NCBI GenBank assembly: GCA_016930795.1
Contig: JAFGFY010000069.1
Location: 1 to 55,743, forward strand
Source of the DNA: Deltaproteobacteria bacterium
Lineage (GTDB): Bacteria; Desulfobacterota; DSM-4660; Desulfatiglandales; HGW-15
DNA length: 55,743 nt
Direction: 5' to 3'
Positions within the stretch are counted from its first letter, which is position 1. Each line of letters starts with the position of its first letter. Shown in pieces: positions 21,204 to 38,870 of the stretch. Position numbers and translations under genes: made by a program. A model generated the notes under the pieces. The model was given only the letters and a program-made list of their open reading frames with translations. It was not told the origin of the DNA and ran no database searches.

Positions 21204-22505
21204 CTAATGGGGCTCTTCATATGTCAGCACTGTATCTTCTTTTAAAAACGGGCTTTCTTCTTTCACCCGCTTTCCCTCCAGAGTAAAGGTCAGAAAGGCC
21301 CCGACAACGAGAAGTGCAGCCGCCATCAAAAATGAATAGGTGTACCCGCCTGTGGCGCTCTGGAGCATCTGGGAGAGCCGTCCCATCACGAATCCACCGA
21401 CCCCCCAGGCGGTAAATACAATCCCGTAGTTGATCCCGAAATGGCTCATTCCCCATTGATCCTTGGTAAGGGATGGGAAAAGAGAAAGGTTGGCTCCATA
21501 GTTGAAGCCGATAAAGGTCGCCAGAAGCACGAGAACGGCTGCAACGGCATTTTCGGATCCCACCACGGGAATCGCGATCAGCATCAAAACAGCCTGAAAT
21601 ATCAATATGGATAAAAGTGTGGCTCGACGGCCGATCTTGTCCGAAAGCACGCCCGCGACGATTCGCCCCCCCGCGTTGCCGACGGCCAGAATCGCCACAG
21701 CCAGAAACGCCAGATTCCCCATACTCTCCTTCGCCATCCCCGCCACGCTGCCGATAACCATCAATCCCGCCCCGGCGCCTATAAAATAGATAACCCATAT
21801 CATATAGAAGGTGCGGGTCTTCATCATCTCGGAAGGCGGCGAGTTTTTATTCTGAAGGGGCTTTATCAGAGAAGGGCCTTCCAAGTCTGTCTTGCCGGCA
21901 GCCGTTTCAGGCGGAGGATTGATCAAAAGAAGGGAAAGCCCGCATACGACGAAAAAAAAGGCTATTCCGAAAAAGAGCATGGCCTTCTGCAGTCCCCAGG
22001 CTCCAAGCAGGTATTGGGACAGGGGAGCAATATAGACCGAGGCCAATCCGAAACCGGAAACCACGAGCCCTGCAATCAACCCGGTCTTTTCGGGAGGGAA
22101 CCATTTCAGGGCCGGCGGAGTAGCGGATGAATATCCGAACCCGATTCCCGTTCCGGCCAGCACACCGAATCCAAGGACCCAAACAACGTAATTCGTCGAT
22201 TGGGAAATCAAAATAAAGCCTAGGCCCACCAGGAGGCCGCCTATAAACGCCGTGATCCTTGGCCCGAACCTGTCCTGGCATTTACCCGCAAGGATCATGG
22301 CAAATGCAAAGACGATGCAACAGACCGCATACGGATCATTCAAGGAGGCGGGCTCCCATTGAAAGGCCCCTTGTCCTCCTTGGTCGATAGATTCCTTGAT
22401 CGCCCCCTTGAAAATACTCCATGTATAGAGGATACCCAACGCCAGGTTGATGCCCGTCCCACTAAAAGTGACCAACCAGCCTTTGTTTTTTGATTGAGAT
22501 GTCAT
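21204..22505 (-). CDS. OFA-family MFS transporter (oxalate/formate antiporter-like)
   Basis: 433 residues with 12 predicted helices and a central cytoplasmic loop (about 205-230). It has the subfamily's GTGINLALGILYTWSIFKG start, GLGFILIS, the motif-A-like RIVAGVLSDKIGRRATLL between helices 8 and 9, and the GANLSLFPSLTKDQWG segment. OFA members exchange small monocarboxylates, but substrate is not predictable from sequence. It lies 101 bp downstream of acetyl-CoA synthetase, which makes acetate or a related acid a fair guess. Confidence 0.85.
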   Translation of the reverse strand: MTSQSKNKGWLVTFSGTGINLALGILYTWSIFKGAIKESIDQGGQGAFQWEPASLNDPYAVCCIVFAFAMILAGKCQDRFGPRITAFIGGLLVGLGFILISQSTNYVVWVLGFGVLAGTGIGFGYSSATPPALKWFPPEKTGLIAGLVVSGFGLASVYIAPLSQYLLGAWGLQKAMLFFGIAFFFVVCGLSLLLINPPPETAAGKTDLEGPSLIKPLQNKNSPPSEMMKTRTFYMIWVIYFIGAGAGLMVIGSVAGMAKESMGNLAFLAVAILAVGNAGGRIVAGVLSDKIGRRATLLSILIFQAVLMLIAIPVVGSENAVAAVLVLLATFIGFNYGANLSLFPSLTKDQWGMSHFGINYGIVFTAWGVGGFVMGRLSQMLQSATGGYTYSFLMAAALLVVGAFLTFTLEGKRVKEESPFLKEDTVLTYEEPH

Positions 22506-22606
22506 AGTTCATTCCTCGTAGGAAATAATTCGTTCTTCAAATAGCCTTCTTCTAATGCCATACTCCCATTCACCGCCGTGATCACAGCCGAACGCAGAGA
22601 AGCCCG

Positions 22607-24595
22607 CTACTGTCGGCCCTCAATCAATCGATCGACGACATCGGGTTCCGCTAGTGTTGAGGTATCGCCTAGTTGATCAATAGCGCCTTCAGCGATCTTT
22701 CTCAGGATCCTGCGCATGATTTTCCCGCTTCGTGTCTTCGGAAGGGCATCGGTAAAGTGGAGTTTGTCCGGAGACGCGATGGGCCCGATCTCCTTTCTCA
22801 CATGCTGGACGAGCGCCTTTTTGAGTTCCTCCGAAGGCTCAAAACCCTGCTTCAAGGTGACAAAGGCATAGATCCCCTGCCCTTTGATGTCATGGGGGAA
22901 ACCGACAACAGCAGATTCGGCCACGGCCTCGTGAGCCACTAAGGCGCTTTCCACTTCCGCCGTTCCCATCCTGTGGCCCGAGACATTGATAACGTCATCC
23001 ACACGGCCCATAAGAAAATAATACCCGTCTTCATCCTTTCGGGCCCCGTCACCCGTAAAATAGAGACCGGGCATCTGGACAAAGTATTGTGTTTTGAATC
23101 TGTCCGGATCCCCATAGACCGTTCGCATAAAACCGGGCCACGCCTTTCTGATATAGAGGTGCCCTCCCTCGTTTATGTCGGCTTCCGTGCCGTCCTGTCT
23201 TAGTATTACAGGATTGACGCCGAAGAATGGGAGCGCTGCCGATCCCGGTTTCATGGCCATGGCCCCTGGAATCGGTGTAATCATGAACCCTCCTGTCTCC
23301 GTCTGCCACCAGGTGTCCACGATGGGACATTTCTCCTTCCCGATTACATTGTAATACCAAAGCCACGCCTCGGGGTTGATCGGCTCTCCCACTGTTCCAA
23401 GAAGTCGCAGGCTGCTCAGGTCCCTCCTGTTCGGCCAATCATCCCCGTTTTTCATGATCGCTCGAATCGCCGTAGGTGCTGTATAGAAAATGTTTACACC
23501 ATACTTCTCCACCACTTCCCAGAAACGGTCCGGTTCCGGATAGTTGGGGACCCCTTCAAACATCAGGGACGTCGCCCCTAGAGAGAGAGGGCCGTAGACA
23601 ATGTAGCTGTGACCCGTCACCCATCCGATGTCGGCCGTACACCACCAGATGTCTTCGTCCTTGTAGTCGAAACAGTATTTCAAGGTCATCGTCGTATAGA
23701 GGAGGTAACCCGCCGTGGTATGAAGAACGCCCTTGGGCTTCCCTGTACTGCCGCTGGTATAAAGGATGAAGAGAGGATCCTCCGCATCCAGGCTCTCAGG
23801 TTCGCAATGGATAGAAGCCTTAGCCATAAGCTCGTGCCACCACAAGTCCCGGCCTTCCTTCATCTGGGTTTCTTTGTCTACTCGATTCACCACGATACAT
23901 TGCTTGACAGTCGGACACATCTCCAAGGCCGCGTCCGCGCTGGGCTTGCTGGGCAGGACCTTTCCCGAGCGGTATCCCCAGTTGCAGGTAATCAATGTCT
24001 CTGCCTTACAGTCCTGAATCCGATCCCTCAGGGCGTCAGAGCTAAAGCCTCCGAAGACCACACTATGAATCGCACCGATCCTGGCACAGGCCAGCATTGC
24101 GATGGGAAGCTCGGGAATCATTGGAAGATAGATAGCGACTCGATCCCCCTTTTTCACATCAAGCCCCTTGAGGACATTGGCAAACTTGCAGACCTCCCGG
24201 TGAAGACCTTGGTACGTGTAGGTCCTGGATTCTTCCAGGGGCTCTCCTTGCCAGATCAGAGCGGCCTTGTTTTTTCTCCATGTCTTCAAATGCCGATCCA
24301 GACAGTTGTACGAAACATTAAGCTTTCCTCCTGCAAAATAGCGAATGTAGATATCGTCCTTGAAACTGTATTCCTCTGAGGGTCCGTCCCATTTCTTGAA
24401 CCAATCCAGGTACTCTTCTGCAGCTTCCGCCCAAAAACCTTGAGGATCTTCAATCGATCTCTTATAGCGTTCTTCATACGCTTTCATGTTTTTCAAATAA
24501 GCCTTTTCTACAAACGCCTCGGTCGGCTTAAAAGCCCTCTTTTCCGCATAAACCGATTCCACATGACCTGCATTTTCCTTTGTTTTTGCATCCAT
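22607..24595 (-). CDS. acs: Acetyl-CoA synthetase (AMP-forming)
   Basis: About 662 residues from the ATG at 24595, the usual Acs length, with AAGGAG about 12 bp upstream. A GTG at 24685 overlaps the porin stop as GTGA and would add 30 residues with no ribosome site. The AMP-binding motif [14 protein letters not shown], the acetate-pocket WWQTETGG, the hinge [17 protein letters not shown] and the acetylatable Lys in TRSGKIMRR are all present. It activates acetate to acetyl-CoA in the cytoplasm. It is downstream of a porin and a sigma-54 promoter, indicating regulated acetate uptake and use. Confidence 0.93.
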
Positions 24596-24681
24596 CTCTT
24601 TGTATTTCTCCTTTCTTGCGATAAAATCTATTAGTTTGTCGAAGGCCCTGAGCAAAACCCGGGGATAGGAATCGCGAGGCC

Positions 24682-26025
24682 TCACCAGTTATATATAAAA
24701 GAAAACTGAATCCGATTGTCCGTCCCCCTGCTCATCTCTTTGTATTCCGTGTCCCAATGGCTGTATTCCAGACCGACAGTCACGGAGGGAATGACGTCAA
24801 AAAGCCCGTTGAGATAGACAAACCTGTTTTTCGCCCGCATACCGGGATTCAGGTATTTGTCAGAAGGATTATCCAGACCAAATCCCGCATGGAACTGCCA
24901 TTCCTGATCGGGTTGATATCGGAGCTGGGCCCAGCCCCCCGTCGCCTTAATTCCTTCACCTGCTATGACGTTTACTCCCTGGAGAATCCCTCCAAAGTAA
25001 TCATCGAGGTTGCGCCCAACAAATGCTTCCCCTTTCAATGAGATTTGATCGGAAAAAGGGATATCAAAGTCCAAATTGACGGACCACGACTGCAATTCTC
25101 TCTCGATTGTATCCCGTTTCATCTCTTCTTCCCCATAGTGGCCGGAAAGACCGAACACACTCTCCTTCTCAGTGAAGCATTTTGTAGCTAAAGCAAGTCT
25201 GGCTTGAATGGATGGGATTCCTGTGTCCTCGCCGTCATTCTCACCGTCGAGATCTAGGTCCTCGTTGACTAATCCTGACGTCCTCGCTATGGACACAGCC
25301 GTCAACAACCTGTTTCTATTGTTCAGGGCATAATCGGTGGTCAAGCCCAATTGTGGTCGCCGATACCCAATGTTCCCTCCGGCCCATCCGACAGTATAAT
25401 TCAGGGTGTAGGGATTCAGAGGTGAAATCACGTCGGATGTTTGTCCCGCAATGAGGCTCAAACCCTCTTTTTTGATCCTAAGAAAAGCATGCCGCAGCAT
25501 GGGTTCCGCCTTGTTTTCATGCCTCGTAGATCCGTCTCCATAAAAATCAACCTCTATTCTTGCTTGAGCCGTCCAATCAGTAAAAGGCGGGGCCGTGATG
25601 TTCATGCCCAGCCTTGTTTGTCTCGCCGTCATGTTGAACTCATCATCATTCTTGTTCTCGGCTTCTCCTGAAATGTACAACACAAAATCACCATAGTTGG
25701 TCCTGCTGTCGTCGTAGGAGGCATCCAATTTAATATAGCCGTACGGTTTAAATTGGAACTTGTTGCTTGCACGGGGCTCCACAACCTCTTTCTCTGTCTT
25801 TTTGGCGCTGCTTTCCACATTTTGCTCGATTTTTGTTATATTTGCTCCTTCTTCATTTCTCTCTTGTTGCTGTCTCATTAACTGCTTAAGCTCGTTAAGC
25901 TCTTCTTCCAGTTTCTCTATCCTCATTTGGAGGGGCTCCGTTTGAAGCTCCGCACTCACCCTTGAATAGAGGCAAAAACAAAAGACTCCACAGATTATGA
26001 AGGAAAAGAATATTCTGCGCATCAT
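24682..26025 (-). CDS. Outer-membrane porin with N-terminal coiled coil
   Basis: 447 residues. A signal peptide ([20 protein letters not shown], about 1-25) is followed by a coiled coil (30-75: [21 protein letters not shown]). About 370 residues of alternating strands rich in aromatic residues end in YNW, the usual aromatic C-terminus of outer-membrane barrels. The fold resembles DcaP-like porins, which also start with a coiled coil and pass small organic acids. It is the first intact gene after the promoter at 26390-26406 and precedes acs, so acetate or another carboxylate may be its cargo. Confidence 0.82.
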
Positions 26026-26039
26026 GTTTTTTCTCTCTT

Positions 26040-26295
26040 TCTATTCGCTATTTTAACGAACAACCCAAACGGCTTTGTTCTTTGCTGATTCAACGACTTT
26101 CCTGCAGACCCGACCCCTTGAAAATTCCTTTGATCTTCTCTTCCCAGGTCGCGCAAAAATTCCGGGATCTTTCCAAAAAGATGAAATGAAACCACCGTGG
26201 TTTGTCTCGCAGGGAAAACGCGACTCACATACCGCACAGCTTCAAAGGATTGATCCGATCCGTCCACTGCGAGCAGCACTTTTCTTGCGTGTCAT
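26040..26295 (-). pseudogene. Universal stress protein gene remnant (frameshifted, truncated)
   Basis: The frame beginning at GTG 26279 encodes VLLAVDGSDQSFEAVRYVSR and later FHLFGKIPEFLRDL, the first 45-50 residues of a UspA-type domain. A proper start (ATG at 26295, MTRKK) is one base out of frame; removing one A from the A-run near 26280-26284 would restore it. After PEFLRDL the similarity fades, and the domain is about half the normal length. It lies between the sigma-54 promoter at 26390-26406 and the porin, so it is probably still transcribed as leader RNA. Confidence 0.6.
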
Positions 26296-26389: not shown

Positions 26390-26406
26390 AGCAACTTGCG
26401 TGCCAA
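26390..26406 (-). promoter_or_regulatory. Sigma-54 promoter upstream of porin-acs
   Basis: The minus strand reads TTGGCACGCAAGTTGCT, a full consensus match (TGGCACG-N4-TTGCW). It faces the usp remnant, porin and acs. It lies 147 bp downstream of the NtrC-type regulator gene that may act on it. Confidence 0.92.
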
Positions 26407-26552: not shown

Positions 26553-27983
26553 TTACCCCTCTCTTACCGTTGTCTCCATTTCAAGCTGATATTTCTCTAT
26601 CTTGGAGTGAAGGGTCGGTCTGGAGAGACCGAGGAGCTTAGCCGCCTGGGAGCGATTGCCACGCGTGAGGTTCAGTGCTTCACTGATAAGAATACTGGCA
26701 AACCTGTTCATGGATGAATCAAAAATGTGTTCTTCCACGGGATCACTCAGAACTTCACGTACCCAGCCTCGGATCGGTTGATCTTCCGTTTGACTCATAA
26801 TCCTTTTCCCGGAATCCCCAATACTGATGGCCTGAGCAATATCTTCGGGGTGGATGGGGGCGCCACGATTGAATATTAAGACTTTATGAATAGTATTGGA
26901 AAGCTCGCGAACATTGCCCGGCCATTCATAGTAACTGAGGGTTTCTTTTGCTTCCTCTAGAAGTCCCGGGGGATCAATGCCCAGTGCCGCTGCGTAATGC
27001 GATATATAGTAATCTGTTAGAAGAAGGATGTCGTCTTTCCGTTCACGAAGCGGGGGAAGCCAAATTGTCACGACTTTAAGGCGATAATAAAGGTCTTCGC
27101 GGAAAAGGCCTTCAGAAATGGCCTCTTCCAGATCCCGATTTGTGGAGGCGATGATCCTCACATCAACGGGAAAGGTCTCTCGGCCACCGAGACGCTCAAC
27201 TTTTCTTTCTTGAAGCAGTCTCAATATCTTCCCCTGAATACTGAAGGGCATGTCACCAATCTCATCTAGGAGAACCGTTCCGCTATTAGCCTGCTCGATT
27301 TTCCCCACACGGCGATGAGCCGCCCCGGTGAAGGCCCCTTTCTCATATCCGAACAATTCACTCTCCAGCAGTGTATCAGGGATCGCCACACAGTTTATCA
27401 CGTGAAAAGGCTTGTCGGATCGAAGGCTATGCTGATAGATGGCTCGAGCGACCAGTTCCTTGCCTGTGCCGGACTCCCCTCGAATAAGGACAGTCGCCTC
27501 TGTTGAGGATACCCTCCCGATGGCCTTGTAGACATCCTGCATGCAGGTACTTCTACCGATGATGGCTTCCCCCGATGTCTCTTCGGGAACGGCATTCATA
27601 TTCACCGGCGAGCGCATGAAACGACCCGCTTCCAGCGCTTGAGCGATCACGCTGAGCATATCCGGAATGTCAAAGGGTTTGAGGATATAATCAAAGGCCC
27701 CCATCTTCGTGGCCTCTATGGCGGTCTCTGTGGTCCCGTAGGCAGTCATGATGATCACAGGAAGCTTGGGCTCGACTTTATGGATGGCCTCGAAGGTTTC
27801 GAAGCCATTCATTCCTGGAAGCCGCATATCCAGAATGACCAGGTCCGGAACTTCCGCCTGGACCATTGAGAGGCCCGCTTCACCGCTGGACGCGCTTTTT
27901 ACTGAATACTCTTCCTCTTTAAGAAGCTTCTCAAAGCTCCTACGCAATTGATCATCGTCATCAATAATCAGGATGTTGTTCAC
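26553..27983 (-). CDS. NtrC-family sigma-54-dependent response regulator
   Basis: 476 residues. Receiver 1-120 (IDDDDQ, VILDMRLPGMNG, MTAYG, YILKPFDI), AAA+ 140-375 with Walker A GESGTGKE, the sigma-54-contact loop GAFTGA, Walker B VLLDEIGD and an arginine-finger region, then a Fis-type HTH at the end (GNRSQAAKLLGLSRPTLHSK). Its start overlaps the end of the kinase gene by 23 bp, marking them as a pair. It is the best candidate to bind the TTTACA-gaN-TGTAAA dyads, one of which lies 25 bp past its own stop codon. Confidence 0.93.
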   Translation of the reverse strand: MNNILIIDDDDQLRRSFEKLLKEEEYSVKSASSGEAGLSMVQAEVPDLVILDMRLPGMNGFETFEAIHKVEPKLPVIIMTAYGTTETAIEATKMGAFDYILKPFDIPDMLSVIAQALEAGRFMRSPVNMNAVPEETSGEAIIGRSTCMQDVYKAIGRVSSTEATVLIRGESGTGKELVARAIYQHSLRSDKPFHVINCVAIPDTLLESELFGYEKGAFTGAAHRRVGKIEQANSGTVLLDEIGDMPFSIQGKILRLLQERKVERLGGRETFPVDVRIIASTNRDLEEAISEGLFREDLYYRLKVVTIWLPPLRERKDDILLLTDYYISHYAAALGIDPPGLLEEAKETLSYYEWPGNVRELSNTIHKVLIFNRGAPIHPEDIAQAISIGDSGKRIMSQTEDQPIRGWVREVLSDPVEEHIFDSSMNRFASILISEALNLTRGNRSQAAKLLGLSRPTLHSKIEKYQLEMETTVREG

Positions 27984-29460
27984 GCTCTGACTCCGTCATG
28001 GGGAGGGTCATCACAAAAGTCACTCCCTCGCCTTTATTTGAGATGAAATCCAGCCACCCGCCATGATTCGCCACAATCCTAGCGGCGATATTCAGGCCGA
28101 GGCCCGTTCCCTCGTCTTTTGTTGTGAAAAACGGCTGAAAAATCTGGTCCCTTATCGAATCCGGGATCCCTGACCCGCTATCAGCAACTCGCACCACCGC
28201 CACACGGCCTAACGGCTCGACAAAACGCTCTTCTTCTTGAATCCGAATACACCCGCCTCCTTCCATCGCCTCGCAGGCATTAATGATCAGATTAACAAGA
28301 ACCTCTTTCAGTTGCTCAGGGTCGGCCTGAATCTCCGGAAGAAAGCGCTCCCGGTGGAGGTCTATGTCTACATCATACGATTTAAGCCGATGCTCCAGTA
28401 ACTGAAGGACCATATCCACCACTTCTGAAGGACTCACCTTCTGCATTTTAAGCTTTGGCGGACGAGCGAACTCGATAAAATTTTGGATGATGGTGTCAAT
28501 ACGACCAATCTCCTCTGAGATCACCGTGAAGTCTTCTTTCTGAACAGGGGTAAGTTTCAGGCTTCGTCCCAGGGAAAAGAGCCTCATCTTGACCGAGGTC
28601 AGGGGGTTGCGAACACTGTGGGCGACCCCTGCGGCCAGTTTACCGACCATAGCCAACCTCTCGGTCTGCAAGAGGTGCTCGCGGCTTTTTTCAAGTTCAG
28701 AATGGGTGTGATCCATATCTTCGATCAGCCCGCGAACACTGCGATCAAGGGCCTCGACCTCATCACCGGATCGATCCATCCCTCCTTTGCGATCCGCATC
28801 CAAAGCCAATCTGCGAACCGGTCCCAAGATCTGGTTGACCAACACGAAGACCAAGAGCAAGCCAAGCAGGATAACTGCCGGCATCGCTGTGGCCGCAATG
28901 ATCCTGAGGTTTTTGGCCTGGACGCTGCTCCTGTCTCTGGCCTCCGTAATCCTGTACCTGTGGATGTCTTTGTATACCTCACACAGATCCAGTGTCTCGG
29001 AGAAGTCCGTGCGCACTCGAACATGAAGCAGGGCTCCCTCTTCCCTTTGATCGGTTTTGTAATAGGCGATCACGTCGTCTTTTCCCGTGATATACCGAAG
29101 GTAGGCCGTCTCGATCCGGTCGATGGCTCGTTTTTCTTCCTCATTCTCGGCCAGCAGCCGCACTTCATGGAGCCTTTCACTAAAGATCTGCCGATAGACC
29201 CCCAGCTGCGTGAGCCAGTCCGGATCATTGTCCATTAAATAGTAGGAAACCAATCCCTTCTGGTTGACGAGGGCCGTCTCAAGGGCCTCGGCTGCCTGGT
29301 AGGCGGCCACATTCTTGTTAATGATACCGTTCAAGAGGCTTTCCATTCGGTAGGTATACCATACCGTAACCAAGGCACCCATCAAGGCGATAAAGACCAG
29401 GACGGTCAAAATTAAGTATATCTGATTGCGCAGGCTGATTTTTTTAACAATCTCCATCAC
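27961..29460 (-). CDS. Sensor histidine kinase with four-helix-bundle sensor
   Basis: 499 residues. TM1 at about 13-34, a helical periplasmic domain (35-185) of four-helix-bundle type, TM2 at about 188-212, a HAMP-like linker, and HisKA with GVAHSVRNPLTSVK (Ser in place of the more usual Glu after the His). HATPase_c has NLIINACEA, DSGSGIP and GTGLGLN. GTG at 29460 or ATG at 29457 starts it, with AAAGG just upstream. It is unlike the five dCache kinases and pairs with the overlapping NtrC-type regulator. Confidence 0.9.
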   Translation of the reverse strand: MMEIVKKISLRNQIYLILTVLVFIALMGALVTVWYTYRMESLLNGIINKNVAAYQAAEALETALVNQKGLVSYYLMDNDPDWLTQLGVYRQIFSERLHEVRLLAENEEEKRAIDRIETAYLRYITGKDDVIAYYKTDQREEGALLHVRVRTDFSETLDLCEVYKDIHRYRITEARDRSSVQAKNLRIIAATAMPAVILLGLLLVFVLVNQILGPVRRLALDADRKGGMDRSGDEVEALDRSVRGLIEDMDHTHSELEKSREHLLQTERLAMVGKLAAGVAHSVRNPLTSVKMRLFSLGRSLKLTPVQKEDFTVISEEIGRIDTIIQNFIEFARPPKLKMQKVSPSEVVDMVLQLLEHRLKSYDVDIDLHRERFLPEIQADPEQLKEVLVNLIINACEAMEGGGCIRIQEEERFVEPLGRVAVVRVADSGSGIPDSIRDQIFQPFFTTKDEGTGLGLNIAARIVANHGGWLDFISNKGEGVTFVMTLPMTESEREQHPDY

Positions 29461-29619: not shown

Positions 29620-30450
29620 CTAATCCGATACTCCGCTTCCGCCTGACATCCAAGACGGAAGACCTCTGATATCTATCTTTGTCTCTTTGACACCCGTAAT
29701 GGTCTTCGAGATTTCATCTATTTCTTGAGCCAGTATTTCTTCCTTTCCTCTAGGTGCTTCACCCTTCACGAAGACCCTTCCACTCTTTGCAGATACTCGA
29801 AGATCCCGCTTGACATCTACTAAAGCCGCTTTTATTTGAGCGGCAAGCGCTAAATCATCAACGTTTTGTTGAGACTCAGGTGTGGCCTGAAACTGCTCCA
29901 AACTTGAGGCTTGACAAATCATGTCCACCGCGTTTTTCACAGAGAATTTCTGAATGTGGATGACCAGATCATAGAGGCTCGAATCCCGTGTGTCAATTCC
30001 ATACAGGGATTTGCTCCATTTGACCCTCTCGTCATCGTCCTTTTTTAGAATTCGTAAAGCTTCCGCTCTTGATATGTCTTCACGCTCCATTTCTAACCGA
30101 ACACGCTCTTCTATGTCGGCAATAATCCTCACCTTTAGAACGTGGGATATGCCTTTAACAAAAAAATGACCGGCCAGTCCATGATAGACGATATTATCTC
30201 TTTTGACATGCTTCAGCATCTCCGCTTCAATGAAGGTCACATATTTCTCTTTGCTGTGGGAGACATATTTGAAAAAGGACGGCGCGTCATGAATGGCTCT
30301 CGTCAGTTTCACCTCCGGGACATTGAATTCTTCCGAGGCTGAAAGAAGGATATCGCGTCCAACGCATTCATACCCAAGCTCTTGGGCGACCTTCTCGGCG
30401 ATCTCCTTGCCTTTGCTATATGAACCTCGACTAATCGTAATAATAGCCAT
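29620..30450 (-). CDS. Cytidylate-kinase-like protein with C-terminal BON-like domain
   Basis: 276 residues. The N-terminal 190 residues resemble the cytidylate-kinase-like family: it opens AIITISRGSYSKGKEIAEKVA, where the P-loop is the divergent SRGSYSKGKE, continues with GRDIL, and has an Arg/Asp-rich lid (REDISRAEALRILKKDDDERVKW). Residues 205-265 look like a BON/hyperosmotic-type fold (AAQIKAALVDVKRDLRVSAKSGRVFVKGE). The combination is unusual for a cytoplasmic kinase. It lies 21 bp after the PEP-synthase-like gene and is probably co-transcribed. The substrate is unknown; a phosphotransfer role alongside that enzyme is inference. Confidence 0.72.
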   Translation of the reverse strand: MAIITISRGSYSKGKEIAEKVAQELGYECVGRDILLSASEEFNVPEVKLTRAIHDAPSFFKYVSHSKEKYVTFIEAEMLKHVKRDNIVYHGLAGHFFVKGISHVLKVRIIADIEERVRLEMEREDISRAEALRILKKDDDERVKWSKSLYGIDTRDSSLYDLVIHIQKFSVKNAVDMICQASSLEQFQATPESQQNVDDLALAAQIKAALVDVKRDLRVSAKSGRVFVKGEAPRGKEEILAQEIDEISKTITGVKETKIDIRGLPSWMSGGSGVSD

Positions 30451-30471: not shown

Positions 30472-33075
30472 CTATTGAACGCTTAATATTTCATCAATAC
30501 TTTCATTTATTTTCGATCTGTAATAGCGTACCTTTTGATCATTGCCCATAATCACATCCAGTTGTCTCGTATGGATGATAAGGTAGCCTAGAATTCTGAG
30601 GGATTTCTCCATATTCTCCTTTGGCTGATCTTCCAGACCGGCCATCAGAAAATCGTCTTTCACCTCTACTCCGAAACCATACCCTTCCAAGATCTCCATA
30701 AGAAAAAGGACTCTCTTATTCCGTCTTTGATCATCAGCAGCCCCGCCTTTGAACTGAAAACGAATATAGTTTTCTGTCACTCTCTCACTGACAAGGGTCT
30801 CAATAATGGAGAGATGAAAGCCAAATCTTGAATTTAGGCTGCAGTAGTTTTTTGAGATCATGAAATAATTGCGATCCGCATATCTCGACCTCATCCCGGG
30901 AACCAGCGCCGTATTCCTCGTCGCCTCAAACATAACGGACATCAGCCCTTTTCCGTCAACCGGTGGCGGCCCCTCCCAGGGAAAGGCGGTGATTCCCTTC
31001 CATAATGCCAACATGGGAATGGAGACAATGTTTTCCAGTCGAACGTATTTGCCTTCTACCTCTTCTCTAAAGCCGTCATCCAGATTCAGAATCCACCAGT
31101 TCATGGGAATATTCACAAAAAGCTGCTTGCCGGATCTTTCTGGAAATTGATGATCTTTACCGAAACGAAACATCTCATGCACCGATTTTTCGTGGCAGAA
31201 GCGGGTGATATCGTGAAAGGTCTCGCAGTTCCCAGGCCTAAATGAGGTTTTATCCGGGTCAAGAAGAGTTAACGGTACAATATGCCGGGCCGCTCCTTTC
31301 AGGGCTTCATAAACGGGGCTGCCGAGCATCAGGTTTTTTGGTCTTACAGTTTTTTCAAGGAAGCCTTCAACGCGCCCATCAAAGATCCTTCCGCCATCGG
31401 CATCCACTGTGATGATCCGGCCATTCTGCAACCGCTCCATGGCTTTTTGAACCCCAAAAAGGGCCGGTACGGAAAACTCTCGTGCCACATTGGCCAAGTG
31501 ACCGGCGATGCTCCCTTGCTCCGTAACCACTGCAGACGCCTTATTCAGCAGGGTCGCCCACCGCGGCAGGGCCTGTGCGGCGACCAGGACAGCGCCATCC
31601 GGAAATTTCATGACGTCCATATCTTTTTTCAATACAAAGACCGGTCCTGATCCGAGCCCGGGACTTGCGAGGGTCCCCCCTTTGATCAGTACTGATTCCC
31701 CTTCCCACACATTCATTAAATCGGGAAAGTCTCCGGCCGAGGCCTGCACAAGGGGCCGGCATTGGAGAATAACAAAAGATCCATCACCATCAAGGGCCCA
31801 TTCAATGTCCTGTGGACAACCGTAGTGAGTCTCCAGCCTTCGAGCCATGTCGGCAAGCTCCAAGGCCTGCTCATCACTCAAAGATTCTTTAGCACCGTCC
31901 TCACCCGATAGATCCATTCTGCAGACCCCTTCATCCGGATAACACACGAATTTTCGTTCCTTGAAGGCAATCTCCTTGTGCTTGATCTCCATGGGCTCGG
32001 CCCCGGAAATCCAGATGAGGTCTGGTGTGGTGTTCCCGTCCACAACCGATTTGGGAAGACCCCAAACGGAATTGATCAACAAGGCGTCGTCACGGATATT
32101 GACGGGATTTCTCGAGTAGATCACACCTCCCGAGACCGCGTCCGCCATCCGAAGACACCCAACGCACATAACCACATCCTCATCCCGAATACCCCGGTTC
32201 AAGCGATAGGACATGGCGGGAAGACTGAATTTGCTCGCGACCACTTCTTTATAGGCCTGAAGGATATTTTCCTTACTCACGTTGAGCTCTGAACGATATT
32301 GGCCGGCAAAAGAGATGCCTGCTGCGTCTTCCCCCAGGGCACTGCTTCTCATGGCCACAGTGATCCCTCGACCTTCCCGCTCTTCCAGCAACCCGTACTG
32401 CTCCTGAATCGCTTCTTCAAGATCACGGGGAATGGATGATCCAATGATCAGTTGCTGAAGTGATGCGCTGAGGCCGAATAGCTCGTCAAGGGCTTGGATA
32501 TCCGTTGTCTGGATCCTGCGGTCGATCTCCGGCTGCAGATCATTGTATGACATGAAGCGCTGGTATCCACAGGCAGTGATGACAAATCCGTCGGAAATCT
32601 TCAAATGAATTCGGTTCTTAATCTCCGCGAGGTTAGCAATCTTTCCGCCCACCAGGTCCGCCATCGTCCTCTCCACTTGGTCGAGGATAAGGACCAGGGG
32701 GCCTTCCCGCAACCGCCCTCTATCCTTTACAAATGGATTTATTTTTTTCCGGATTTCCTTGAACCTGTTGTAAAGCGCTTCATAGTTTCCTGGGGAGAGT
32801 TCATTAAGATGTCTAATCATCTGCCACACGCTCGCGGAGACGCTGGTGCATCTTGATGAGACGAAATTCATTCCGAACGGTCGAGTCCCTTTCAAGGCTT
32901 CTTCCATGTCCGCCATGATCTCCAAGGCCCTGTTATTGGCATTGAGAAGAAGCTTGAACGCGTAATATCGGGCCTTGAACTCGGTTCGAAGACCCTCGGT
33001 GTCAAGCCTCTCGACATCCGGATTCCTGGAAAGCAACCGCCTAATCATATGTCCTAATGACTCCATGGTGATCAC
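30472..33075 (-). CDS. PEP-synthase/PPDK-like ATP-grasp phosphotransferase lacking the PEP-binding barrel
   Basis: 867 residues. Helical N-terminal region (1-130), an ATP-grasp pyruvate/PPDK domain (about 140-435: VGGKIANLAEI, AMRSSALGEDAAGISFAGQY, QDIEWALDGDGSFVILQCRP), then the swivelling phosphohistidine domain (about 480-570) with the catalytic His in TEQGSIAGHLANVAREF. The last 270 residues are not the PEP/pyruvate TIM barrel and match nothing I recognise. The layout parallels enzymes that use ATP and a phospho-His to phosphorylate a different acceptor, such as rifampin phosphotransferase. The true acceptor is unknown. It follows a two-helix membrane protein and a TauE/SafE permease. Confidence 0.82.
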   Translation of the reverse strand: MITMESLGHMIRRLLSRNPDVERLDTEGLRTEFKARYYAFKLLLNANNRALEIMADMEEALKGTRPFGMNFVSSRCTSVSASVWQMIRHLNELSPGNYEALYNRFKEIRKKINPFVKDRGRLREGPLVLILDQVERTMADLVGGKIANLAEIKNRIHLKISDGFVITACGYQRFMSYNDLQPEIDRRIQTTDIQALDELFGLSASLQQLIIGSSIPRDLEEAIQEQYGLLEEREGRGITVAMRSSALGEDAAGISFAGQYRSELNVSKENILQAYKEVVASKFSLPAMSYRLNRGIRDEDVVMCVGCLRMADAVSGGVIYSRNPVNIRDDALLINSVWGLPKSVVDGNTTPDLIWISGAEPMEIKHKEIAFKERKFVCYPDEGVCRMDLSGEDGAKESLSDEQALELADMARRLETHYGCPQDIEWALDGDGSFVILQCRPLVQASAGDFPDLMNVWEGESVLIKGGTLASPGLGSGPVFVLKKDMDVMKFPDGAVLVAAQALPRWATLLNKASAVVTEQGSIAGHLANVAREFSVPALFGVQKAMERLQNGRIITVDADGGRIFDGRVEGFLEKTVRPKNLMLGSPVYEALKGAARHIVPLTLLDPDKTSFRPGNCETFHDITRFCHEKSVHEMFRFGKDHQFPERSGKQLFVNIPMNWWILNLDDGFREEVEGKYVRLENIVSIPMLALWKGITAFPWEGPPPVDGKGLMSVMFEATRNTALVPGMRSRYADRNYFMISKNYCSLNSRFGFHLSIIETLVSERVTENYIRFQFKGGAADDQRRNKRVLFLMEILEGYGFGVEVKDDFLMAGLEDQPKENMEKSLRILGYLIIHTRQLDVIMGNDQKVRYYRSKINESIDEILSVQ

Positions 33076-33132
33076 AGTAAACGAAAAAAGGTTAAAGGCA
33101 AAGGAAGAGGAAAGCCAAAACTTCCGGATGGC

Positions 33133-33822
33133 TCAGTGTTCCAACTGCATTCCCCACCCCTCGAACATATACATGTAGGCAAACCCGTACCAGAGGGTGT
33201 ATATCACGTAAAAAACCAACGAAAAGATCACAATCCAGATTTTATCCATAATCCTTTGAGGCTCAATCCCAAAGTAGTTGTAGGAGCACTCAACCGCCTT
33301 ATCTTTTACTTCCGTGACGATTTTGGCCTCTTTAAATTTTTTCTGCTTCTTGAGATCCTTGTCCATCTCCCTGAAGGTCAACCACCAGTGGTATAGGGCC
33401 AGTCTCGCGTCATATCCGTATTTCTTTGAAATTTGATCACCGTCGTTTCGATACATGGCCTCGGCATCCTCCAGACAATTCTCCAGAATTTTTCCCAAAT
33501 CACCCGATACTCTGAGGATGTTACCCGACAGAGAGGTCTCTGCGCCTCCTTTTTCAAATAGGCGTGCGCAGTGCTCTGTAGTTTGATGATCCTGCATGAT
33601 GAGCGTCAAGCTGACCATATCACCAAGATAGCCTTTGGTTTCTTCCGTCACCTTGGGGATGTAATAGGCAGAAGCCTTGGATATGGAGTTATAGAGATGA
33701 TCCATGTAATTCAGTCCGTTCTTCCCTTCAAAAACAGGCAGAAAAAAGATGATCAGTAGGACAACAAATCCGATCATCATGGCAAAGCCTCTGAAAAATA
33801 TTCCTTTTCGGGAAATCATCAT
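33133..33822 (-). CDS. Two-helix membrane protein of unknown function
   Basis: 229 residues. One helix near each end (about 10-32 and 195-220) flanks a soluble middle of about 160 residues rich in charged residues and containing three Cys (EHCARLF, ENCLEDA, VECSYNY). No domain recognised. Its start overlaps the permease stop by 4 bp (ATGA), so the two are translationally coupled. It probably forms part of the same membrane complex as the permease; inference. With both ends inside, the middle domain would be periplasmic. Confidence 0.7.
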   Translation of the reverse strand: MMISRKGIFFRGFAMMIGFVVLLIIFFLPVFEGKNGLNYMDHLYNSISKASAYYIPKVTEETKGYLGDMVSLTLIMQDHQTTEHCARLFEKGGAETSLSGNILRVSGDLGKILENCLEDAEAMYRNDGDQISKKYGYDARLALYHWWLTFREMDKDLKKQKKFKEAKIVTEVKDKAVECSYNYFGIEPQRIMDKIWIVIFSLVFYVIYTLWYGFAYMYMFEGWGMQLEH

Positions 33823-35132
33823 AGCACCTCCCCTCCCTTCAGCGTCGATATGTTTTTAAAGAATGTCCCGATCACCCAGACGCCGAAGACTGCGATCACA
33901 ATAAAAAAAGCATAGACGCCGATCTTGTCCAGAACAGAACCGAACGACTTGGAGATGGGAACCACACCCACCTCACCCAGTTTACCCGGTAGGGCGAAGA
34001 TTCGGTTGACAAAGCCGGCCAAGACAGCCATAGCATAGAACCCGCGAATGGTTATCCCCTTGACCACCTTTGTGACCAAAGAGCCTATCTGGATCCCCAC
34101 CAATGATCCGAGGAGCATCCCCATGGCCAGCGTGTAAAAAATAAAACCATAGACGGCATACTGTGTGATCGAAGCATACCCTGCAGTGAAGATAATCTGA
34201 AAGATATCGGTGCCCACTGTGGTCATGGAAGAGACCCCCAGCATGTAAACAAAAATGGGAAAAGTCAAAAACCCGCCTCCCACGCCCATAATGCCTGCGG
34301 CCAGTCCCACCAATGCACCACTCAAAACCAGGAATACCCAGGAGATGCTCCTACCGCCGGGTGTAAAATTATAATCAAACCTGATCATGGGCTGGATTTT
34401 CATGGCCTGGAGTTTTCTGGGAAGATTCCCCACATCCGTACCTTCATCTCGTCCTCCCAGAGACTCTTCGTCGTACTCGTGAAAATCGACTTCGGCCTTT
34501 ATCGCTTTTCTTGCCTTTAGGAAATCGATCAGGGCATAGATCCCCAAAAATCCAAGCATCATTGCATAGACTGTGGTGATAAAGGCATCACTCAATACAG
34601 GGTTGAGTTCATAGAGCACACGATTGATGACACCTCCAAGGGTCGCGCCGATAATGGCCCCGATCAAAAAAACCAAGGCCAAAGGGACCGAAACATTTCC
34701 AAGCTTCTTGTGCATCACGGTCCCCATAATCGCCTTGGCGAAAATATGAAAGAGATCAGTTCCGACGGCAAGAATTCCCTTGATCCCTGCACTCATCAGT
34801 GCGGGAGCAATAATGAATCCACCTCCCGCTCCGATGCAACCGGTAATCAATCCGGCGCCAAGTCCAATTAGAATAGAGACAATAAAAATACCTGATGAAA
34901 AGAATGCCGGACTGTAAGCCTTCTTTCCTCCTAGGACCTCTGGAAGAGCCGATCCGATCTCTTCGGCGAAGGCAATACCTACAAGTAAAACAGGAATCGT
35001 CATCAAACCAAGAATAATCATCCTTTTTCGATCACCCAATATTGTTCTTGAAGCATTGATTTCCCATTCGGCATGGACCTTTGCTCCGATCATCATGAAT
35101 CGCCCCCACTCCTTAAAGAATCTCATCATCAT
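33819..35132 (-). CDS. TauE/SafE family anion permease
   Basis: 437 residues with about nine helices in two homologous halves, each opening with the family pattern (GLGAGLITGCIGAGGGFIIAPAL and GLAAGIMGVGGGFLTFPIFVYMLG). A cytoplasmic loop of about 60 residues (210-265) separates them. Family members export sulfite, sulfoacetate or related organosulfur anions, or import them. There is an N-terminal extension of about 30 residues before the first helix. The neighbours are a coupled membrane protein and two receivers; substrate not predictable, though a sulfur oxyanion fits the inferred lifestyle. Confidence 0.87.
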   Translation of the reverse strand: MMMRFFKEWGRFMMIGAKVHAEWEINASRTILGDRKRMIILGLMTIPVLLVGIAFAEEIGSALPEVLGGKKAYSPAFFSSGIFIVSILIGLGAGLITGCIGAGGGFIIAPALMSAGIKGILAVGTDLFHIFAKAIMGTVMHKKLGNVSVPLALVFLIGAIIGATLGGVINRVLYELNPVLSDAFITTVYAMMLGFLGIYALIDFLKARKAIKAEVDFHEYDEESLGGRDEGTDVGNLPRKLQAMKIQPMIRFDYNFTPGGRSISWVFLVLSGALVGLAAGIMGVGGGFLTFPIFVYMLGVSSMTTVGTDIFQIIFTAGYASITQYAVYGFIFYTLAMGMLLGSLVGIQIGSLVTKVVKGITIRGFYAMAVLAGFVNRIFALPGKLGEVGVVPISKSFGSVLDKIGVYAFFIVIAVFGVWVIGTFFKNISTLKGGEVL

Positions 35133-35175: not shown

Positions 35176-35598
35176 TCATTCTCTGCCTGAGGTCATCCGC
35201 TTTATGTTATCTATCTTTTGTTCCTGTATGATCTTCTGTTGATGGGCGTCCTGAATCTTGTACAGGAGATCATCGATCTGCATGGGTTTCATAAGGTAAT
35301 CAAACGCCCCGAACTCCATTCCTTGAACGGCGACTTCCACGCTGGCATGCCCGGTAAGCATAATGACCTCGATGAGAGGGTGCCTCTTCTTTAACGCCCT
35401 CAAGGTCTCAATACCGTCCATTCCCGGCATTCGAACATCTAGGATCACTACATCTATTGGGCTCTGATCCAATGTCTGAAGCGCTTCTTCACCACCTCGT
35501 ACGCCGGTGATATCCACATTTCGCTTTTTCATTCGCTTGATTAAGGTTTCTGAAAATTCTCTTTCGTCATCGACGAGCAAAACCTTTATGTTATGCAT
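35176..35598 (-). CDS. Single-domain response regulator
   Basis: A receiver (LVDDEREF, VILDVRMPGMDG, LTGHA, YLMKPMQI) with a short basic tail and no output domain. The frame is open to 35691, but the ATG at 35598 has GGAGG 8 bp upstream and begins exactly at the receiver, so it is preferred. It is the second of two consecutive lone receivers after the kinase at 36131-37891 and lies 43 bp ahead of the TauE/SafE permease. Confidence 0.87.
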   Translation of the reverse strand: MHNIKVLLVDDEREFSETLIKRMKKRNVDITGVRGGEEALQTLDQSPIDVVILDVRMPGMDGIETLRALKKRHPLIEVIMLTGHASVEVAVQGMEFGAFDYLMKPMQIDDLLYKIQDAHQQKIIQEQKIDNIKRMTSGRE

Positions 35599-35703
35599 TC
35601 TCATCACCTCCTCCAAAGGAAACGCTTGCCCCTTCTTTATCAGGCGTGCTTCACGTTTGTAGTTCCTGTCTTCACGGTCACAAACAAACACTTTTGCGCA
35701 TTT

Positions 35704-36102
35704 TCAATCCGGCCATTTTTCGTCAAGCCTTCTCTTTTTTTCCGTGGCTTCTTGCATCCGGGAAATGAGCTGATCAATGTCACAGGGTTTAACCAGGTAA
35801 TCGAAAGCCCCCAATCTCATTCCTCTAATGGCGGAGTCCACGGTAGAATGGCCGGTGAGAATGATAACTTCCACCAACGGATAGTCTCTTTTAATCTCCT
35901 CGAGGGTTCTAAGGCCATTCATACCAGGCATTTTGATATCAAGCACAATGATCTCAATATCGGGATCTTTTTTAAGCTGGGCCAGTGCCTCTTGTCCGCT
36001 AAAGGCCGTTATGATATTGAGTTCTCTTCTCGATAGACGCTTGGTCAATGTCTTTACGAAGGGTATCTCATCGTCGACCAAGAGTATTTTCACGGGATAC
36101 AT
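35704..36102 (-). CDS. Single-domain response regulator
   Basis: 132 residues: LVDDEIPF, VLDIKMPGMNG, LTGHS and YLVKPCDI mark an intact receiver; no output domain. It lies 28 bp after the dCache kinase and before a second lone receiver, so one kinase may serve two acceptors, or the two may compete for phosphate. The upstream minus strand has AGAAGGAAAGG before the start. Confidence 0.87.
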   Translation of the reverse strand: MYPVKILLVDDEIPFVKTLTKRLSRRELNIITAFSGQEALAQLKKDPDIEIIVLDIKMPGMNGLRTLEEIKRDYPLVEVIILTGHSTVDSAIRGMRLGAFDYLVKPCDIDQLISRMQEATEKKRRLDEKWPD

Positions 36103-36130: not shown

Positions 36131-37891
36131 CTATTGTTGAGAATTCAAAATTCTTGACGCTTCTTCGACATTGTTTTTCCCACTCCCCTTGAGTGGGAGC
36201 CTTATACAGAACGTACTCCCTTTATCGATGACGCTGCGGACACTGATCTCCCCTCCCAATTTTTTAATAATCCCATAGCAGATTGACAGGCCTAAACCGG
36301 TTCCCTTCCCGACCGGCTTGGTCGTAAAAAAGGGATCAAAGATTTGTGAAATGTTATCTTCCGGAATCCCGACACCATCGTCTGAAACCTCAATCACGAC
36401 ATGATCTTCTTCCAGTCGGGCGGATATGGATAAAATCCCCCCTTTCTTTTCCATTGCATCCAAGGCGTTATTAATCAGGTTGAGAAGGACTTGTTGAAGC
36501 TCGGTTGGAGAGACCTCAATGGGAGGAAGATCCTTTTTTATTTCCATATTGATGATAATGCCGCTGAACCTTGCCCTTTTTGCGGAAATGGTGACCATAT
36601 CTTCAATCAATTCATTCAACCTGATCGTCTCTATTCTGGAGTCTGTTTTCCTGGCAAAACTGAGCAGTTTGTGGGTTATCTCCTTGCAGCGTTCCCCTTG
36701 AGTGCGAATCTGCCTCAATGCTCTTCTAAATTCACCCAAATTTTTGCTTTCCTGGAATTCTTCCTCTTCCAACAGATCGTCAATCCAGCCGGCTTCTTCA
36801 ACCATAATAGCGACCGGATTGTTGATTTCATGGGCGATACCTGCCGCCAGTTCACCTATCGACGCCAGTTTGCCCGTCTGAAACATCTGTTCGCTTCGTT
36901 TTTGCTTTTCTTTGTCAGCCTGCTGGATTCTACGAAGCATCTTCTTGGAGAGGCTGAGGGTATTGGCCACGATCAACAAACCGACTATCAAGATGACAGT
37001 GAGGGCTATCATCTCTGTCTTTATAAGACCGGAAAACGCCTCAGAGGCCCTTTGATAATAGACCAGGGCCCAATCCCCTCCTTTGAGAAAGCCTGTTACG
37101 TATATGTTTTTATGCCCTGAACCATCCGTCCGCTGAACCATGAAGATGTCTCGCGCCCCTTCTGTGATTCCCAGGAAATCCATTAAGCTTCTTTCTCCGT
37201 GGTCTATGTGGTGAATCGATCCGACCTGATATTGCCCATCCCTATCTATGATAAAAGCGGATCCCCCCCTTCCGGTAACAGTCTCTTTCACGACTCGGCT
37301 GAACACATCGCGATCGATGCCTGTTCGCAAAACCCAGTCTTTTTCCATTTTGTTTTTTCTCACTGCAATGATGATAAAGGGAATGTCTGCCAAGCCGGAA
37401 GGCATATGGCTAATCACATACCCGGTACTCATCGCTTCTCGGTACCAGTCAGTCTTTAAATGTCTTGGATTCTCAGATTTATGAGGGCCTGCATAGGCGA
37501 CCCGAACACCCTCATCGTCAATCACCTCCAGATCTGAAAAGACATGGCCGTAATGCTTCTGTAATCTGTTCAACATCTCCACTAAAAAGAATTCATCCGT
37601 TAATTGTTGGAAATTAAATGTGTCCGCCATCATGCTGATGTCGGCCAGTTTATCTTCCAAGAAACGATCAATATGCTCTGTGCTTTTTTGAATAACTTCT
37701 TCGAGATGCGCCCTAATCTCCTTTTTATAGGACACTCGAGACTGATATAAAATGATGCCGCTGACCAGCACCATGGGTATAAGGGGAACCACCACTCCGA
37801 TAAGAAACATACTTTTCATTAATGATTTATAATGCTTATCAGCTGCCATGCCTCTTTTGAGTCCTTCGAAAAAGGGATTCGACGTCTTCAA
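36131..37891 (-). CDS. dCache sensor histidine kinase
   Basis: 586 residues from a TTG start; an ATG 14 codons later (37849) is an alternative. TM1 at about 27-49, a double-Cache sensor that departs most from its paralogues ([33 protein letters not shown]), TM2 at about 300-320, no HAMP, HisKA with [12 protein letters not shown], and HATPase_c with [16 protein letters not shown] and GKGTGLGLS. The changes in the sensor suggest a different ligand from the other four. It lies 31 bp after the double-receiver gene in the unit led by the promoter at 38854-38870. Confidence 0.9.
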
Positions 37892-37922: not shown

Positions 37923-38765
37923 TTATTTGTCATCTTCATTCTCTTCCATAAACTCTTTCATGGTTTCCCTAGCCATTTCCCTCTCGCCTGCCTGCGCAAA
38001 GGCTGAAGCCATAATGAGAGTATCCATAGCCCTCTTTGATTTCTTAATTTTCTTCCATGCATTTTGTAAGGCGCCGACCAGGCGATCAATGTCCACGGGT
38101 TTTCTCATGTAGGCGACTGCCCCTAATTTCTTGGCCATGGCCTCATCTTTGTCCGTTCCATGACCTGTCAGCACAACCACCTGGACATCAGGATTCCTCT
38201 CCTTGGCCTGACGCAGCACCTCTATCCCATCAATGCCGGGCATTCTGAGGTCCAGCACCATCATGTCATGTTTTCCCTCCTTGAGCGCTTCCAGGGCCTG
38301 CTCACCGTCATAGGCGACATCGGCTTCAAGGTTTCGCAGTTCAAGTCGCTCCGAAAGGCTCTCGACAAATTCCTTCTCATCATCCACTAGAAGCACTTTC
38401 ATCTTCTCTTTCTTCATGGCGCCAATAAGATGATCAATATCTACCGGTTTCTTTAGATAGGCGAATGCGCCAAGTTTTTTGGCCATGGCTTCGTCCTTCT
38501 CGGTTCCGTGACCTGTCAGCACAACCACCTGGACATCGGGATTCCTCTCTTTGGCCTGACGCAGCACCTCTATCCCATCAATGCCGGGCATTCTGAGGTC
38601 CAGCACCATCACGTCGTGTTTTCCTTCCTTGAGCGCTTCCAGGGCCTGCTCACCGTCATAGGCGACATCGGCTTCAAGGTTTCGCAGTCCAAGTCGCTCC
38701 GAAAGGCTCTCGACAAATTCCTTTTCGTCATCCACTAAAAGGATTTTCAGTTTTTCTTTCTTCAT
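37923..38765 (-). CDS. Double-receiver response regulator (tandem REC-REC)
   Basis: 280 residues: two nearly identical receivers (1-116 and 117-232) with LLVDDEKEF, VLDLRMPGIDG, LTGHGT and KKPVDI or RKPVDI, then a 48-residue helical tail. The second copy starts with its own MKKEK, the relic of a start codon, so the gene arose by in-frame tandem duplication of a receiver gene. Both phosphoacceptor Asps are intact. It is the first gene after the sigma-54 promoter at 38854-38870 and may buffer or relay phosphate among the several kinases here. Confidence 0.9.
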   Translation of the reverse strand: MKKEKLKILLVDDEKEFVESLSERLGLRNLEADVAYDGEQALEALKEGKHDVMVLDLRMPGIDGIEVLRQAKERNPDVQVVVLTGHGTEKDEAMAKKLGAFAYLKKPVDIDHLIGAMKKEKMKVLLVDDEKEFVESLSERLELRNLEADVAYDGEQALEALKEGKHDMMVLDLRMPGIDGIEVLRQAKERNPDVQVVVLTGHGTDKDEAMAKKLGAVAYMRKPVDIDRLVGALQNAWKKIKKSKRAMDTLIMASAFAQAGEREMARETMKEFMEENEDDK

Positions 38766-38853: not shown

Positions 38854-38870
38854 AGCAAAGGATATGCCAA
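38854..38870 (-). promoter_or_regulatory. Sigma-54 promoter upstream of the double-receiver operon
   Basis: The minus strand reads TTGGCATATCCTTTGCT: TTGGCA at -24 and TTTGCT at -12 with exact spacing. It lies 89 bp upstream of the start at 38765 and faces the large unit running to 29.6 kb. Confidence 0.82.

Follow-up and report, generated by a model that had tools for sequence, protein, structure and literature searches.

The window, a 55,743-nucleotide stretch of a Deltaproteobacteria bacterium (assembly GCA_016930795.1, contig JAFGFY010000069.1), carries on its minus strand genes for two-component signalling, a TauE/SafE-family permease, a small membrane protein and an enzyme resembling phosphoenolpyruvate (PEP) synthase. 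An original prediction, made from the letters alone, had joined the permease, the membrane protein, the enzyme and a kinase/BON protein in one unit that could import an anion and phosphorylate it under the control of receivers just upstream. The coordinates given there for the open reading frames (ORFs) and the 4-bp overlap of the permease gene were correct, and all the ORFs are present on the minus strand. The order of transcription is histidine kinase, receiver, receiver, TauE, two-helix protein, enzyme, cytidylate-kinase-like gene, histidine kinase and NtrC-type regulator, with the permease and two-helix protein genes sharing the overlap ATGA. The features of the conserved part are as follows.

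36131-37891, minus strand: Cache-domain sensor histidine kinase of the unit (order kinase, receiver, receiver, TauE in many loci)
35704-36102, minus strand: second single-domain receiver (domain scan and synteny)
35176-35691, minus strand: single-domain receiver adjoining the permease (domain scan; receiver upstream of the enzyme in 43/47 loci)
33819-35132, minus strand: TauE/SafE-family permease, 437 amino acids (PF01925, E 9.3e-38; conserved motifs; synteny)
33133-33822, minus strand: two-helix membrane protein, the permease partner (helices at about 13-31 and 197-215; precedes the enzyme, together with TauE, in 42/47 loci)
30472-33075, minus strand: barrel-less PEP-synthase-like dikinase, 867 amino acids, GTG start (Pfam domains and full-length relatives)
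31738-32658, minus strand: its ATP-grasp domain, residues 140-446 (PPDK_N, E 1.2e-91; PEP synthase alignment; invariance)
31390-31605, minus strand: its phosphohistidine swivel domain, residues 491-562, with H526 (PEP-utilizers, E 5.1e-18; alignment; invariance)
30475-31338, minus strand: its C-terminal domain, about residues 580-867, of no known family or fold (Pfam, PDB, Foldseek, invariance)

The enzyme was predicted to keep the ATP-grasp and phosphohistidine domains of PEP synthase and to have lost the PEP-binding barrel, and both parts of this claim held. When compared with the solved PEP synthases (2OLS and 8A8E), the ATP-grasp motifs and the swivel histidine were kept in the same order, with about 29% identity to 2OLS by structural alignment and with H526 aligned to the PEP synthase histidine; the enzyme differs from them in an additional N-terminal domain, helical and about 120 residues long, and in the PEP/pyruvate barrel, which is missing and replaced. 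In an alignment of 96 members of the family, residues K145, R243, E249, D250, E425, Q438 and R440 of the ATP-grasp domain showed no exception and H526 was invariant (96/96). H526 is the predicted phosphate-carrying histidine, and the enzyme is probably catalytically active. The AlphaFold2 model of the full-length protein had a pLDDT (predicted local distance difference test) of 83.7, the ATP-grasp and swivel domains being confident.

Past residue 562, no Pfam family was recognised in the enzyme. The barrel family PF02896 was not found in it either; it was detected in just two proteins of the window's genome, whose open frames measure 600 and 929 amino acids. When the C-terminal domain was modelled alone with AlphaFold2, a mixed alpha/beta structure was obtained and no barrel, not even a diverged PEP-binding one, was apparent (mean pLDDT 78.6, moderate confidence). 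A Foldseek search of this domain against the PDB gave a best E value of 0.022 and template-modelling (TM) scores of at most about 0.2 over the domain, with no PEP-type barrel among the top matches, and a profile of the domain found no relative among PDB sequences. Because the domain model is of moderate confidence, these C-terminal residues, about 290 in number, are better described as having no recognisable fold in the model than as a new fold. With no match among solved folds, the structure of the domain would be informative in itself.

These results bear on the simplest explanation of the enzyme, that of a diverged PEP synthase serving gluconeogenesis and lying near the permease by chance. 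Its best named matches were indeed PEP synthase models, but at 319 bits against a cut-off of 739.75 (TIGR01418) and 329 bits against 598 (NF005057) they fell far below equivalog level; the NCBIfam model of rifampin phosphotransferase (RPH) gave 212 bits against a cut-off of 999. As the barrel is absent, another PEP-utilising enzyme that does have the barrel is encoded in the genome (the 929-residue frame) and the linkage to the permease is conserved across the phylum, this already disfavoured explanation is most improbable.

Within the C-terminal domain, H621, D622, R625, H628, H754, N769, R788, D808 and D840, together with G777 and G778, showed no exception in the 96 members. About ten polar residues of the domain are thus invariant while the neighbouring genes and the permeases vary. 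Non-PEP acceptor domains are known with the same chemistry. Phenylphosphate synthase PpsAB, HpeHI and CreHI combine an ATP-grasp and a phosphohistidine swivel with a non-PEP acceptor domain, although they consist of two subunits, with the ATP-grasp and the swivel on separate ones, use a phenolic acceptor and carry a different acceptor domain before the swivel (PMC12167813), whereas the window enzyme is one chain. RPH is also a single chain with an ATP-grasp, a swivel histidine and a non-PEP acceptor domain, but its substrate is an antibiotic and its order is ATP-grasp, acceptor and swivel, whereas in the window enzyme the swivel precedes the C-terminal domain. Such enzymes lend plausibility to the proposal that the imported compound is itself phosphorylated in the cytoplasm (ATP + X + H2O -> AMP + Pi + X-P) and so trapped or activated, the permease and enzyme representing transport and a first catabolic step: the phosphohistidine chemistry is the same with other acceptor domains (PMC12167813, PMC4844700), and the conserved polar residues could bind an anion. 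However, residues that are invariant across clades with strongly differing permeases would suit one shared acceptor better.

The enzyme is one of a large family that has no name and is carried by sulfate reducers and related bacteria. Across 61 genomes, made up of the source genome of the window and 60 relatives, 28 carried the C-terminal domain. In a phylum sample restricted to completeness of 90% or more and contamination of no more than 5%, it occurred in 129 of 326 genomes, roughly 40%; in one family of the phylum it was present in 94/119 genomes, with up to 9 copies. For the scan of genome contigs profile A1 was too diverse, and the closer set A2 was used. A total of 523 stretches of GTDB genomes matched the domain, and the best 80 of these were nearly all titled Desulfobacterota, Deltaproteobacteria or groups within them; a scan of viral contigs revealed no relatives. 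Some members have long N-terminal extensions (L159:6760-12273 and L160:5945-10294, open frames of 1838 and 1450 amino acids), and in these extended members, with open frames of up to 1838 residues, Pfam revealed no informative fused domain above cut-off. Two members stand in tandem with receivers nearby in L206, L211 and L070.

Among 47 loci of close orthologues with at least 5.5 kb of upstream sequence, TauE and the two-helix protein were found upstream on the same strand as the enzyme in 42, and a receiver in 43. As a guard against sampling close kin, 40 loci were hand-picked from the match list to spread over genomes of the phylum, and are thus not a random sample; for comparison, 20 control regions were taken from genomes of those searches. 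A nearby TauE was seen in 27/40 loci versus 0/20 controls, and a receiver in 33/40 versus 7/20. The permease, membrane protein, enzyme and receivers therefore belong together far beyond chance, being neighbours in many genomes, and this part of the predicted unit stood. The fourth proposed member did not: the cytidylate-kinase-like gene was downstream of the enzyme in none of 59 other loci and near it in 1/40 phylum-wide loci versus 1/20 controls. It is a bystander, and was dropped from the unit. A literature search combining TauE, PEP synthase, cytidylate kinase, universal stress and response regulator terms returned nothing on this gene unit as such.

Two explanations are touched by these counts. 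Tight linkage to the permease is also what phosphorylation of the cargo would predict, but none of the constant neighbours of the enzyme was a dedicated catabolic gene. On the other hand, the receiver is the most constant neighbour (within 600 bp in 23/40 loci), often even without TauE, and a histidine kinase/NtrC gene lies within 3 kb downstream of the enzyme in 19/59 loci. This could mean that a soluble signal or metabolite, produced by the enzyme and read by receivers or regulators, controls expression of the permease operon, transport itself being independent of the enzyme. The closest receivers lack an output domain, however, and we know of no such signal for this superfamily; we regard this explanation as improbable.

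In a tree of the 96 members (FastTree, midpoint root), in each region of which some members have no TauE nearby, the window enzyme falls in a large clade whose membrane partner is of the two-helix type; a separate group lies beside TauE and PF09608 (Alph_Pro_TM), and a further clade is found in clusters with a third type of membrane protein, the nitrate-cluster type. The second group adjoins exactly the pair of TauE/TSUP permease and Alph_Pro_TM partner that is known elsewhere; the window likewise pairs its permease with a small membrane partner, but that partner is not PF09608. Clusters of the third clade (L171-L180, domains checked on L171) have the order TauE, membrane protein, phosphonate-binding protein, histidine kinase, receiver, enzyme and dual-specificity phosphatase, the same gene order as DVU0251-DVU0245 of Desulfovibrio (PMC4001038). 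Their enzymes carry the C-terminal domain of the window enzyme (E 1e-79 to 1e-84), and that of L171 is 31% identical to it over 802 alignment columns.

The Desulfovibrio cluster (DVU0251-DVU0245 / Dde_0597-0605) shares with the window a TauE permease, a small membrane protein, a histidine kinase, a single receiver and a PPDK_N/mobile-domain enzyme (PMC4001038). It also contains a phosphonate-binding protein and a dual-specificity phosphatase, both present in L171, whereas neither domain was found among the scanned window genes adjoining the unit. The two membrane partners look unrelated, as their sequences and predicted helices differ.

In this cluster, insertions in DVU0246 (the enzyme), DVU0247 (the receiver), DVU0250 and DVU0251 allowed growth in 100 mM nitrate as without nitrate, so that disrupting any one of permease, membrane protein, receiver and enzyme conferred nitrate resistance, whereas DVU0245 mutants remained nitrate-sensitive (PMC4001038). 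As DVU0246 is located 3' of the permease gene, that gene should remain intact in the DVU0246 insertion mutant; because of this position, and because the DVU0245 mutants are sensitive, a polar effect offers no easy explanation. From these mutants we infer that either the function or the production of the permease requires the enzyme and receiver. As their loss produced the same resistance as loss of the permease, and nitrate is an implausible phosphate acceptor, the effect would be on the permease itself. Such resistance is unexpected if the enzyme acts only after uptake, which makes the predicted phosphorylation of an imported anion doubtful by analogy; we consider it possible, though on the unlikely side, and control of the permease is somewhat better supported.

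We therefore tentatively favour, at a little less than an even chance, an ATP-to-phosphohistidine enzyme on which the activity of the permease depends, within a regulated anion-uptake module. The domain make-up, the invariant catalytic residues, the lack of a recognisable barrel, the linkage in three clades with three partner membrane proteins and the match of one clade's clusters to the Desulfovibrio nitrate cluster together support it. In such a module the sensor kinase and single receivers would take in a signal, the TauE-type permease and its small membrane partner would carry the anion, and the barrel-less dikinase would move phosphate from ATP onto H526, from where it would go on through the new C-terminal domain to an acceptor required for permease activity. 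The likeliest acceptor would be a partner protein or a common regulatory molecule and not the transported anion. The enzyme would then act on the permease, and the window unit would work like the distant Desulfovibrio one. A wider version, in which this family, derived from PEP synthase, switches or drives secondary anion permeases throughout the phylum, with ATP phosphate reaching the permease complex or its receiver via the swivel histidine and the new acceptor domain as a phosphoryl-coupled transport control distinct from the phosphotransferase system (PTS), is speculative and rather unlikely.

Several observations weigh against the favoured dependence of the permease on the enzyme. The window and L171 permeases are only 24% identical, the L171-L180 clusters are matched to the nitrate cluster by gene order and domains, and DVU0246 is annotated with 744 amino acids, shorter than the open frames found here. 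The Desulfovibrio mutants could also be explained by permease expression instead of activity. Entry of nitrate by a leaky thiosulfate transporter was proposed by the authors from unpublished data, with no transport assay; for DVU0250 their pooled mutants and their individual mutants gave conflicting results, and for DVU0245 the two species disagree (PMC4001038). The DVU0245 fitness of -6.04 would fit an opposing phosphatase, an idea given little weight because the homologous G20 mutant has the opposite sign. In addition, 13 of the 40 phylum-wide loci have no nearby TauE and 6 of these 13 have no large permease in the vicinity, so the enzyme may also act elsewhere; at these 13 loci a receiver is often still near the enzyme, and no constant alternative permease was seen. 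Finally, no published biochemistry was found on any member of the enzyme family.

If the enzyme does control anion entry, it would tie a concrete enzyme with testable residues to a nitrate-sensitivity cluster that is poorly annotated in sulfate reducers and matters for the control of oil-field souring. An enzyme family that resembles PEP synthase yet lacks the PEP-making barrel occurs, often in several copies, in a large share of the good-quality genomes sampled.

With regard to the other proteins of the unit, the permease scored 130.7 bits with PF01925 (cut-off 32.6) and has glycine-rich motifs in both halves. Its insert at about residues 205-240 is poorly conserved, and is therefore an unlikely phosphorylation site. 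Pfam detected no DNA-binding domain in the receivers, so that any control by them would run via protein contact.

The remaining genes around the unit are listed below.

37923-38765, minus strand: double-receiver protein, farther upstream (domain scan only)
29620-30450, minus strand: cytidylate-kinase-like protein with a weak BON match, a local neighbour outside the conserved unit (downstream of the enzyme in 0/59 other loci)
27961-29460, minus strand: CHASE3 histidine kinase of the downstream pair (histidine kinase/NtrC pair frequent, not constant: 19/59 loci)
26553-27983, minus strand: NtrC-type response regulator of the downstream pair (ORF and synteny)

The kinase assignment of the second of these was borne out by Cytidylate_kin2 (E 4.1e-42), whereas its BON match (PF04972) reached 18.2 bits, under the Pfam cut-off of 27, so that the label BON-like is a hint only; the gene also lies outside positions 30472-35132, to which the predicted unit had been assigned. 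Directly downstream of the NtrC-type regulator, at 21204-26025, are a porin (weak DcaP match), an acetyl-CoA synthetase and a major facilitator superfamily (MFS) transporter. The acetyl-CoA synthetase and other window genes beyond the unit were tested as conserved neighbours and were not conserved. A short ORF at 26022-26279 resembles a universal stress protein (Usp) at its start and could be what is left of a disrupted Usp gene; similar short ORFs occur near the unit elsewhere. Sigma-54-like sites were found on the minus strand at 26390-26405 and 38854-38869, with 0 and 1 mismatches respectively, but little weight is given to them, as the search at two mismatches returned fewer matches than in shuffled sequences. 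Similar sites lie directly 3' of the NtrC-type gene in L083, L108, L112, L128, L130, L133 and L150, with Usp-like ORFs near them in several of these loci. An ATP-type PEP carboxykinase gene is located at 47461-49074, on the opposite strand.

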